Of a DNA stretch of 28,832 bases, positions 19,279-27,071 are shown piece by piece (positions within the stretch are counted from its first letter, which is position 1; the number at the start of each line of letters is the position of its first letter). The notes under the pieces were generated by a model. It was not told the origin of the DNA and did not search any database. It saw only the letters and a list, made by a program, of their open reading frames with translations. Source of the DNA: a virus; the IMG/VR virus record IMGVR_UViG_3300028920_000217, positions 1 through 28,832 of that record; one strand, 5' to 3'. A program made the translations under genes and the position numbers.

Positions 19279-20154
19279 ATGGGTAAATCAGTTAGAGAAA
19301 TTGTCGTTTCTGAATTACTGGAATCCATGAAGGACGGGGTTGTCCCGTGGCACAAACCGTGGTTTCACTTAACAAAATTAAATGTTCGTGGAACTTGTTA
19401 CAGGGGTGTAAATCGTATGTTACTTTCCCGTTATGATGATGTGCTTTACATGACTTTCAAACAGTGTGGGGAGCTGGGCGGGAAAGTCAAAAAGGATGAA
19501 AAGGGAAAAATGGTCGTTTTCTGGAAAATCAACAAAATTGAAACGCGAAACGAAAAAGGGGAAACAGAAATAAAAACTGTTCCAATCCTGCGCTACTATA
19601 AAGTATGGGGATTGTCTCAAGTAGAGTTACCCGAAAAGGTTACAGACAAGCTGAAAGCAAAATATGAAACAGAGCGAAAAAAAGCGGAAACTTTACCGGA
19701 TAGCACAATTGAAGAATTTCTAAAAATGACTGGAGTCAAGGTCAACCGGATTGAATCAGACAGCGCACATTATACACCGTCAAGTGATAGTATCACAATG
19801 CCGTTAATTACTCAATTTAAAACACCTGATGCGTATTACAAGACTCACTTTCACGAACTCACTCACTGGACAGGTCACGAATCCCGATGTAATAGGGATT
19901 TGTCCGGTCGGTTCGGTTCGGAAAAATACGCAAAAGAAGAACTCACAGCGGAAATCGCAAGCTCAATGCTGTGCTATCATTTTAATTTAGATACTCAAAT
20001 TGAAATGACTGCAAGCTACTGCGATGACTGGATGCAGGCAATCAGGGACCATAATAACATTATTTTTTCAGCGTCAAGGCAGTCTGAGGAAGCGATAAAA
20101 TGGTTATCAGAAAAAGTCTTGACTGATGAACAGACAGAGAAAAAGGCAAGTTAG
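19279..20154 (+). CDS. ArdC-like antirestriction protein with zincin metallopeptidase domain
   Basis: 291 residues. The N-terminal half matches ArdC (DUF1738, ssDNA-binding): VPWHKPWFHLTKLNVRGTCYRGVNRMLLS, then DDVLYMTFKQCGELGGKVKKDEKGKMVVFWK at about residues 53-83. The C-terminal half is a zincin: SITMPLITQFKTPDAYYKTHFHELTHWTGH, with HELTH at residues 192-196, and EELTAEIAS (about 220-228) supplying the expected downstream glutamate. ArdC proteins protect incoming DNA from restriction, and some phage relatives are delivered early. It is the first gene after the rightward promoter, fitting immediate-early defence evasion. The stop TAG at 20152-20154 lies inside the left arm of the next hairpin element. 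Confidence 0.85.
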   Translation: MGKSVREIVVSELLESMKDGVVPWHKPWFHLTKLNVRGTCYRGVNRMLLSRYDDVLYMTFKQCGELGGKVKKDEKGKMVVFWKINKIETRNEKGETEIKTVPILRYYKVWGLSQVELPEKVTDKLKAKYETERKKAETLPDSTIEEFLKMTGVKVNRIESDSAHYTPSSDSITMPLITQFKTPDAYYKTHFHELTHWTGHESRCNRDLSGRFGSEKYAKEELTAEIASSMLCYHFNLDTQIEMTASYCDDWMQAIRDHNNIIFSASRQSEEAIKWLSEKVLTDEQTEKKAS

Positions 20155-25076: not shown

Positions 25077-25153
25077 TCGCGGGACCGGGAATCGAACCCG
25101 GACCGATTTACAGGATATGAGCCTGTCACAGCACCAATACTGTCTGCCCCGCA
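25077..25153 (-). tRNA. tRNA with CAT anticodon (Met, or Ile2 if modified)
   Basis: 77 bases on the minus strand. Acceptor TGCGGGG pairs with TCCCGCG (T1.G72 and G7.T66 wobbles), then A73; CCA is not encoded. D stem ACAG/CTGT; anticodon stem ACAGG/CCTGT with loop CTCATAT, anticodon CAT; T arm CCGGG-TTCGATT-CCCGG. Odd points are three bases between acceptor and D stem and an eight-base variable loop. The anticodon stem lacks the three G-C pairs of initiator tRNA, so elongator Met or a lysidine-modified Ile tRNA is more likely. Confidence 0.8.
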
Positions 25154-25198
25154 TACACGGCTGCCAATCTTTCAAGGGGTTTCCTCTACGGAAACATG

Positions 25199-25271
25199 GG
25201 CGGGGAAGGGGAATCGAACCCCCGCTTCAGGTGTCACAAACCTGGGTGCTTCCAACTACACCACCCTCGCC
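25199..25271 (-). tRNA. tRNA-His (GTG)
   Basis: 73 bases including G-1. Anticodon stem CAGGT/ACCTG with loop TTGTGAC, anticodon GTG. The extra 5' G opposite C73, the histidine identity pair, is present. T arm GGGGG-TTCGATT-CCCCT; D arm closes with GTG/CAC. The acceptor has an A4 x C69 mismatch. CCA is not encoded. Confidence 0.88.
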
Positions 25272-25297: not shown

Positions 25298-25333
25298 AAA
25301 AATGGGGCAGGGGTAGTGCCAGTACCCCCGCCC
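25298..25333 (-). terminator. Hairpin terminator between the tmRNA-like RNA and tRNA-His
   Basis: Minus strand: GGGC, a mismatch, GGGGTA, loop of seven, TACCCC, mismatch, GCCC, then CATTTTTGA with five Ts. It could end transcription after the tmRNA-like RNA or serve as a processing stem in the tRNA cluster. Confidence 0.55.
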
Positions 25334-25363: not shown

Positions 25364-25439
25364 TGGACATGGCGGGAATCGAACCCGCGTCCAGGGACAG
25401 CACTTCGGCTTTAATCCCTGTCTACACCTGTTCATGCCC
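25364..25439 (-). ncRNA. tmRNA-like RNA: tRNA-like domain with G3.U70 and no tag-encoding region
   Basis: 76 bases on the minus strand. Acceptor GGGCATG pairs with CATGTCC, followed by A73; the third pair is G3.U70, the alanine identity element used by tmRNA. The 3' end GGACGCGGGTTCGATTCCCG reproduces the tmRNA T-arm region, and GGTGTAGACAGGG near the 5' end matches the tmRNA D-analogue consensus GGnTTCGACnGGG at all but two fixed positions. There is no D stem. CAGGGA/TCCCTG forms the P2-like helix, closed by only 17 bases with a small AGC/GCT helix, so no seven-base anticodon loop, no pseudoknots and no tag reading frame exist. CCA is not encoded. It starts one base after the stop of the preceding gene, implying release by RNase P. 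Confidence 0.7.
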
Positions 25440-25793: not shown

Positions 25794-25973
25794 TTAATGA
25801 AACAGTTTCCCCTGACTCCTCTCTGCCAGGTCTTTTTTCATCCGCATAATTTTGCGATTAAGTTTTCCCTTCTTCTTTTCCAATGCCTCAATCTGATTAT
25901 TTAATTCATATACTTCGTCTTGTAGTATGGTTATTTCCAGCTCCGGGTCTGTGTTAGGTCTTATAAATGGCAT
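25794..25973 (-). CDS. Small coiled-coil protein (59 residues)
   Basis: Starts in a TGATG overlap with the RNA ligase stop at 25973. It begins MPFIRPNTDPELEITILQDE and continues as a lysine-rich heptad helix (VYELNNQIEALEKKKGKLNRKIMRM), ending in LAERSQGKLFH. It is probably a dimeric or trimeric helical protein. The tight coupling to the ligase gene suggests shared expression. Function unknown. Confidence 0.6.
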   Translation of the reverse strand: MPFIRPNTDPELEITILQDEVYELNNQIEALEKKKGKLNRKIMRMKKDLAERSQGKLFH

Positions 25974-26470
25974 CAGAACACCCCCGGCATAAGCTCTTTT
26001 ACCCTGTTAAAAACAAAAAACCGCAGGGTCTTAAAGTTTATGGTGGGGTCTTTGAACTTCTTCAGGATATTCCATGTTTCTTCTCTCACGATGTCATAAA
26101 ACACGGTATTCAATAAGCGTGGAATATCTTTGCTCCCGAACCCTTCAATCTTTGCCTTAACCTTCTCGCATAACGCCTGAGTAACGTACATCTGTGCAAT
26201 CGCATCTTCTACCTGTGCTTTCCCTTTCTGCTCCGGTGCGCCCATAACTTTGCAGTGCTTCTCTTTGAACTCTGCTCTGACAATCTTCGCCCAGGTCTGT
26301 CTTCCGTATGCGTTCCTGTAACCGTAGTTCTTAATAACTATTCCCTCACCAGCCCCCTTTCCGTCCTGAATCAAATAGTCATTCTTCTCAAGCAGGGCTA
26401 CAAGCTGTTCATAGGTCGGATTCTGAATAATCGCCAATGGTGGAATGTATTCAATGCCGTGTTCTTCCAA
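25973..26470 (-). CDS. RNA ligase, C-terminal half after an in-frame TAG
   Basis: The same reading frame as the upstream ligase half continues past a TAG (26483-26485) as YQPILEEHGIEYIPPLAII and so on; the coordinates here begin at the only near-start codon, a TTG at 26470, which has no ribosome site. It carries nucleotidyltransferase motif IV (GEGIVIKNYGYRN) and motif V (TWAKIVRAEFKEK), followed by a helical C-terminal domain (QVEDAIAQMYVTQALCEKVKAKIEGF; ETWNILKKFKDPTINFKTLRFFVFNRV). Without the N-terminal lysine this half cannot be adenylated. It is made only if the TAG is read through, if internal initiation occurs, or not at all. Confidence 0.7.
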   Translation of the reverse strand: MEEHGIEYIPPLAIIQNPTYEQLVALLEKNDYLIQDGKGAGEGIVIKNYGYRNAYGRQTWAKIVRAEFKEKHCKVMGAPEQKGKAQVEDAIAQMYVTQALCEKVKAKIEGFGSKDIPRLLNTVFYDIVREETWNILKKFKDPTINFKTLRFFVFNRVKELMPGVF

Positions 26471-26482
26471 TATTGGCTGGTA

Positions 26483-26866
26483 CTAAGGGTAGGGCAGATA
26501 CGCCACTCCCGCATCCTGAAAGGGGTTGTCCACTGCAACGTCAAACACATAGAATCTGCGCCATGCTTCGTCCCTGTATGTTCTCAAAGTATGCGGAACC
26601 AACCACTCGCCAAACAAACGTAAATCAGAGTGCGCCTTAAAAAACTCAATCAGTTCCGGTCGCTCCTTTGCATACTCACAAAATCCTGCATTGTCTGAAC
26701 TTAAAGACAGGTGCTTTCTCCGGCTTCCGGTTTCGACCGCCCCATCGTACCAAACACTTGCGTTCGTGCCGTCAATTTTCGGGAACACGTGCACTCTGCC
26801 TACGTCAATACCCCGAACTTCATCCGTGCCGTAACGCTCTATATGTTGATATTTTTCAAACTTCAT
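26483..26866 (-). CDS. RNA ligase, N-terminal catalytic half ending at an in-frame TAG
   Basis: Start chosen at 26866 (MKFEKYQHIERYG), five bases after the preceding TAG stop; the in-frame ATGs further up lie inside that gene. Motif I KIDGTN has the nucleophile lysine at residue 30 (FPKIDGTNASVW), followed by LFGEWLVPHTLRTY and RRFYVFDVAV (motif III region), as in the PF09414-type RNA ligases. Codon 128 is TAG. Reading on in frame gives a full 297-codon ligase with motifs IV and V in order and no other break, so this is a single-base nonsense change or a recoded codon. CAG to TAG is one transition away. Neighbouring HAD phosphatase and tRNAs support an RNA-repair role. Confidence 0.75.
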   Translation of the reverse strand: MKFEKYQHIERYGTDEVRGIDVGRVHVFPKIDGTNASVWYDGAVETGSRRKHLSLSSDNAGFCEYAKERPELIEFFKAHSDLRLFGEWLVPHTLRTYRDEAWRRFYVFDVAVDNPFQDAGVAYLPYP

Positions 26867-26870
26867 TGTT

Positions 26871-27071
26871 CTACCACGTGTCGTACCCCGGTATAGCTTC
26901 ATCAATCGTCTTCTCAGTAAAGCCCATCCCTCTTAGTAAAGCCCTGAAAAGCTCTGTCATGTCAGAAACGTGCTCACACTTTTTCAGTCTGTCTTCAACC
27001 GTTATTGACGCGCTTTCTGCTGGATAACCATACTGGTGTTCTTTTTCAATCTGCACTGTAATTCGTATCAT
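26871..27071 (-). CDS. Small hypothetical protein
   Basis: 66 residues from 27071 (MIRITVQIEKEHQYGYP). GGGGG lies six bases before this ATG, whereas the ATG two codons earlier has no spacing to it. It is beta-strand first (ITVQIEKEHQYGYPAESASITVEDRL), then helical (HVSDMTELFRALLRGMGFTEKTIDEAI). The gene overlaps the HAD phosphatase end by 26 bases and stops with TAG just before the ligase. Function unknown. Confidence 0.6.
   Translation of the reverse strand: MIRITVQIEKEHQYGYPAESASITVEDRLKKCEHVSDMTELFRALLRGMGFTEKTIDEAIPGYDTW

Follow-up and report, generated by a model that had tools for sequence, protein, structure and literature searches.

The DNA between positions 25364 and 25439 of this stretch raises the question whether a 76-nt RNA can be a tmRNA without its message, and what such a molecule would do for the virus that carries it. 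The initial annotation had described the tRNA-like domain (TLD) of a tmRNA with intact alanine identity and without a tag region, and had suggested a decoy or inhibitor of trans-translation. The window, i.e. the whole analysed stretch of 28,832 nt, is an IMG/VR virus record, and its terminase, portal and major head protein genes indicate a phage origin.

A tmRNA reduced to its tRNA-like domain

Read from 25439 to 25364 on the minus strand, the RNA has the sequence GGGCATG AACAGGTGTAGA CAGGGAT TAAAGCCGAAGTGCT GTCCCTG GAC GCGGG TTCGATT CCCGC CATGTCC A. It folded into a 7-bp acceptor, a 7-bp P2 helix with a small apical hairpin and a T arm, without a D stem (MFE -31.2 kcal/mol, z -2.3). Its parts, with the evidence for each, are:

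25364-25439, minus strand: TLD-only tmRNA (mini-tmRNA), 76 nt to A73; RF00023 50.7 bits with the match reaching 25361, held-out model 58.3 bits
25433-25439, minus strand: P1 5' strand GGGCATG (G1, G2, G3); sequence, fold, homologues
25421-25432, minus strand: D-analogue AACAGGTGTAGA, no D stem, with the equivalents of E. coli U17 and G19; sequence, homologues, PMC8363625
25414-25420, minus strand: P2 5' strand CAGGGAT; fold, covariation
25399-25413, minus strand: apical element TAAAGCCGAAGTGCT replacing the message domain (subtype II: AAAGC-CGAAGT-GC); homologues
25392-25398, minus strand: P2 3' strand GTCCCTG; fold, covariation
25372-25388, minus strand: T arm GCGGG-TTCGATT-CCCGC, preceded by GAC; sequence, RF00023 alignment
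25365-25371, minus strand: P1 3' strand CATGTCC (U70), then A73 at 25364, CCA not encoded; sequence

The TLD set is thus complete: the 7-bp P1 with G3.U70, A73, the stemless D-analogue, the T arm with its GGAC flank and P2 were all present as originally described. The gap in place of the message domain also held up, with its length corrected from 17 to 15 nt between the P2 strands. The tmRNA model RF00023 (Rfam release 15) matched with 50.7 bits (E 2e-17, cut-off 47) in an alignment running from model position 1 to 374, both ends being present and 308 positions deleted between them. Full-length tmRNAs of about 270-400 nt share with this RNA the P1 with G3.U70, A73, the D-analogue, P2 and the T arm, but carry in addition a message domain with a tag reading frame and pseudoknots. 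Neither a tag reading frame nor a message domain was found in the 76 nt, and pseudoknots PK1-PK4 fall within the missing model positions. The permuted tmRNA model RF04321 reached 17.7 bits, its cut-off being 47; permuted tmRNAs also contain a TLD, but in them the 3' piece comes first, whereas the window RNA begins with the 5' acceptor strand and has no coding part. The RNA has the TLD and P2 without a message domain by which DS6A-type tmRNAs are defined (PMC4131195). Taken together, the sequence makes it nearly certain that this is a natural, phage-borne tmRNA reduced to its TLD.

The RNA is adjoined by the following features:

25973-26905, minus strand: RNA ligase gene with an in-frame TAG at 26483-26485; both halves match phrog_548; PF09414
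25441-25770, minus strand: 109-aa ORF, function not assigned (phrog_22171), ending directly before the RNA
25305-25333, minus strand: terminator-like hairpin after the RNA; weak support from a pattern scan (4 hits vs 2.9 expected)
25198-25270, minus strand: tRNA-His (gtg); ARAGORN, Rfam
25077-25153, minus strand: tRNA-Met (cat); ARAGORN, Rfam

Adjoining tRNA genes might suggest that the RNA is itself an ordinary or odd tRNA. This reading is extremely improbable, as the tRNA model RF00005 gave 28.3 bits, below its cut-off of 29, whereas the tmRNA model scored above its own; ARAGORN made no call at the RNA, finding nearby only tRNA-Met and tRNA-His, and the RNA has neither a D arm nor an anticodon arm.

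The 109-aa ORF and the RNA are probably on one transcript; a search for relatives of the encoded protein found none. The described position in a tRNA cluster beside RNA repair genes was borne out by tRNA-His, tRNA-Met, the RNA ligase gene and a weak HAD-phosphatase match, with the reservation that the ligase gene may be broken. Genome-wide TAG recoding was considered as a cause of the split ligase and rejected, since TAG appears to be the normal stop codon of three other ORFs; the gene may be broken, suppressed or misread and is no sign of a recoded genome. Elsewhere the window encodes an ArdC-type antirestriction protein (ArdcN and zincin-like metallopeptidase domains; 19279-20154, plus strand).

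A conserved RNA family in phages

A BLAST search against isolated phages yielded a first relative in BRock (L002:2993-3070), an unannotated TLD-only RNA of 64.5 bits, and then pointed to further Streptomyces phages. An exact pattern built from the window alone had no match; patterns built from the shared apical letters found 35 contigs of the viral collection, then 90 and 4, and structure scans retained 57 distinct sequences. In the first of these searches all 35 contigs had a complete acceptor with G3.U70. The motifs AAAGCC, GA and GGAC were search criteria and their conservation is partly by design, while G3.U70, A73, C74, an encoded CCA and U17 stood outside the criteria. The family thus comprises at least 57 distinct sequences, mostly from metagenomic viral contigs, and includes nine isolated Streptomyces phages (BRock, GiJojo, LuckySocke, Alone3, pSt2308, Tomas, Naboo, Riptide and Shaeky). 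In GiJojo a hypothetical protein, gene 44 (L016:1524-1766), is annotated over the mini-tmRNA and is probably spurious. Among cellular genomes, one prophage-like copy was found in the 399 genomes of the Nocardia order and none in the 395 of the Streptomyces family; in a pattern scan of genome contigs nothing fetched scored as a mini-tmRNA, the highest score among the full tmRNAs and tRNAs obtained being 38 bits. A terminase search recovered three remote contigs and a near-identical one; judged by its position, the latter stops short of the RNA, and no tmRNA match was obtained in it.

Covariation supported the proposed fold. In an alignment of 21 homologues without the window sequence, 13 of 23 pairs had changed on both sides, no shuffled alignment equalled the covariation score, and RNAalifold arrived unaided at the same structure. 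The model built from these 21 sequences (R1) recognised the window RNA with 58.3 bits (E 4e-13), whereas tRNA-His and tRNA-Met of the window scored 17.1 and 14.9. A larger alignment of 60 sequences, which was fitted to the model and hence is biased towards it, had 97.0% of its cells paired and a covariation of 0.651, against 0.133 when shuffled and at most 0.099 when slid. Eight pairs were compared in P2 and seven of them showed double changes across homologues. In the acceptor, G1-C72, G2-C71 and G3.U70 were present in 60/60 sequences and pairs 4-7 were free to vary; the rest of the acceptor, P2 and the T stem covaried strongly.

The mini-tmRNA model also separated the family from other RNAs, with mini-tmRNAs elsewhere at 44.7-103.6 bits, full-length tmRNAs at no more than 38, tRNAs at no more than about 35 and attP copies of tmRNA 3' ends at 19-22. 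The match of the window RNA to the tmRNA and family models is not due to chance. The attP scores bear on whether the RNA is a copy of the 3' end of a host tmRNA used for integration. Such fragments do exist in some phages, but the true copies in the Gordonia phages Yeezy and Ohgeesy comprise no more than the T arm and 3' acceptor, lie directly beside a tyrosine integrase and account for the 19-22 bits given above. The window RNA, by contrast, retains its entire 5' half and is adjoined by the 109-aa ORF and the RNA ligase gene, with no integrase adjoining. We therefore hold this origin to be highly improbable.

A decayed full-length tmRNA or pseudogene would likewise show TLD features as in a full tmRNA. 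This is nevertheless very unlikely, as it is contradicted by the covariation in 60 divergent sequences and by the invariant identity bases, and also by phages that possess an intact full tmRNA and the mini-tmRNA elsewhere in the genome. Tomas (L017, L242), Naboo and Riptide (L020, L243) each encode both RNAs 9-12 kb apart, so that the full tmRNA occupies a separate locus. The annotated tags of the full tmRNAs are DNSNVAFALAA in Tomas and ANSKFAFALAA in Riptide. From these sequence comparisons we conclude that the mini-tmRNAs form a phage RNA family that is widespread, strongly conserved and, for the most part, not annotated.

Where a full tmRNA carries its message domain, P2 of the window RNA is closed by about 15 nt holding a 3-bp mini-hairpin. 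Two subtypes of this apical element were distinguished. Subtype I, found in actinophages and others, consists of AAAGCC and a hairpin with compensatory changes, e.g. CCG-CACG-CGG, CCA-CAAG-TGG or CCG-TATA-CGG. Subtype II is the type of the window, AAAGC-CGAAGT-GC, and AAAGCCGAAGTGC is identical in two further loci (L185 and L191). AAAGCC occurs in all pattern-found homologues by search design. A very short tag encoded in the apical loop (GCC GCA) was rejected for want of a conserved stop codon: only 8/57 homologues have one, in whichever frame, on the stretch from AAAGCC to GGAC.

Mini-tmRNAs often adjoin the upstream gene, about a dozen of them at a distance of 0 to 14 nt. In five loci (L181, L183, L206, L220 and L231) the RNA starts at the last stop-codon base of a conserved gene, which in L220 encodes a phage exonuclease (phrog_284). 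A common partner gene was rejected, since the neighbours vary between exonuclease, DnaB-like helicase, endonuclease VII and tRNA genes.

Alanine identity and possible functions

In a scan that chose the acceptor by pairing alone, A73 and G3.U70 were found in 57/57 valid sequences. Because both were invariant without being imposed while acceptor pairs 4-7 varied, selection for alanine identity is indicated. C74 is encoded in 56/57 homologues, the window being the sole exception, and CCA in 12/57. The bases that contact SmpB are retained as well. In E. coli tmRNA, Trp122 of SmpB lies in a pocket of A15, U17 and A334, mutation of G19 abolishes SmpB binding, and a truncated tmRNA has been crystallised with SmpB and EF-Tu on the ribosome (PMC8363625). 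By our own assignment of the E. coli numbering, the equivalents of U17 were present in 55/57 homologues, and those of G19 and A334 (the A of GGAC) in 57/57, all of them also in the window; the D-analogue contains GA(C/T) in 57/57. G3.U70 and the kept contact bases would thus be features for alanylation and for the binding of EF-Tu and SmpB.

There is precedent for such a molecule. The tmRNA of mycobacteriophage DS6A has been described as little more than a TLD ("TLD only") (PMC4131195; repeated in PMC11915505); its likeness to the window RNA is taken from this description, and the hosts may differ. As reported in PMC4131195, which cites Mao et al. 2009, a DS6A-like molecule strongly inhibits tmRNA in E. 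coli whether it can be charged or not, perhaps by titration of SmpB. This precedent, which the initial annotation had missed, makes the idea of a decoy or inhibitor more likely and less novel. The literature searched, which lacked most subscription journals, made no mention of further phage TLD-only members, and the breadth of the family, its apical element and its invariant alanine identity appear to be unreported.

Almost all bacteria have a means of ribosome rescue, and there is a search for antibiotics that act on it. We regard interference of the window RNA with host trans-translation as the best explanation of its features, though one that could equally well prove wrong. The RNA would be cut from a phage transcript and given CCA; the AlaRS of the host would charge it with alanine, and SmpB and EF-Tu would bind it. 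It could then enter ribosomes stalled at mRNA ends, or merely occupy SmpB, and in this way compete with the host tmRNA. Having no resume codon, it should be unable to add a tag to the growing peptide or to bring translation to its normal end, and we propose that trans-translation of the host would thereby be blocked or diverted during infection. SmpB titration or competition at the ribosome would fit the conserved SmpB-contact bases. The invariant G3.U70, which a pure SmpB sponge would not need, suggests that alanylation matters and that the role may be more than sponging. The presence of a full tmRNA in the same phage would also be odd if the mini-tmRNA only inhibited trans-translation. Alanine identity and coexistence together make a pure SmpB sponge a poor fit and leave other readings open. 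Two further roles that had been put forward, sequestration of AlaRS and untemplated addition of alanine, found no specific support.

Tag-free rescue is one of these readings: on a stalled ribosome, alanyl-mini-tmRNA with SmpB would take over the nascent chain, and the resulting peptidyl-mini-tmRNA would leave through a release factor, peptidyl-tRNA hydrolase or drop-off. Ribosomes would in this way be recovered with no tag for degradation added, a route that has been proposed for mitochondrial tmRNAs lacking a tag frame. Invariant alanine identity and the full tmRNA that accompanies the mini-tmRNA in three phages point in this direction, as does the persistence of such mitochondrial tmRNAs together with SmpB (PMC11915505). 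The release route is putative, however, and PMC4131195 reports that a similar molecule inhibits even when it cannot be charged, which leaves this reading rather doubtful. The organellar comparison has its limits too. Jakobid mitochondrial tmRNAs and the 65-bp plastid tmRNAs of Mallomonadaceae have, like the mini-tmRNAs, lost the tag-coding region and kept the TLD (PMC11915505), but the phage RNAs close P2 with a conserved apical hairpin. In a broader form, the mini-tmRNAs might be a widespread dedicated class in which the apical hairpin is itself functional and the alanylated RNA serves either tag-free rescue or a selective shut-off of host tmRNA that spares the phage's own full tmRNA where one is present; we put this forward tentatively.

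The apical element could alternatively be bait for another host factor, for instance a defence nuclease or toxin acting on tmRNA, tRNA or AlaRS. AAAGCC, partly a search criterion, is far more conserved than the surrounding P2, and in several phages the mini-tmRNA has tRNA and RNA ligase genes around it. Such a target is putative, however; contigs of 44, 53 and 60 kb, perhaps incomplete records, carry the mini-tmRNA while Rfam at the chosen threshold shows no tRNA gene in them, and the invariant features for alanine and SmpB speak for the translation machinery instead. A decoy of this kind therefore seems unlikely.

If interference with host trans-translation is the role, the mini-tmRNA would be a natural 76-nt probe or inhibitor of ribosome rescue, and if it mimics only the tRNA half of tmRNA, manipulation of ribosome rescue would be common among phages. 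From the single published example, DS6A, the type grows here into a family whose members, at least 57 sequences, share a conserved apical element and have strict alanine identity, so that the question becomes testable in laboratory Streptomyces phages such as BRock and Tomas.

Other tmRNAs in phage genomes

Permuted tmRNAs were encountered in Stenotrophomonas, Xanthomonas and Pseudomonas phages (L003, L004, L005, L006, L009 and L246; RF04321 76-137 bits), and none of the loci examined carried a tmRNA feature in the deposited annotation. The cyanophages S-CAM1 and S-CRM01 (L247 and L249) encode cyanobacterial-type tmRNAs (RF01851, 128 and 74 bits) that lack an annotation there. Xanthomonas phage XacN1 showed a partial match to GOLLD RNA (L005:2809-3029, 105 bits, cut by the end of the stretch), located about 1 kb past its permuted tmRNA.
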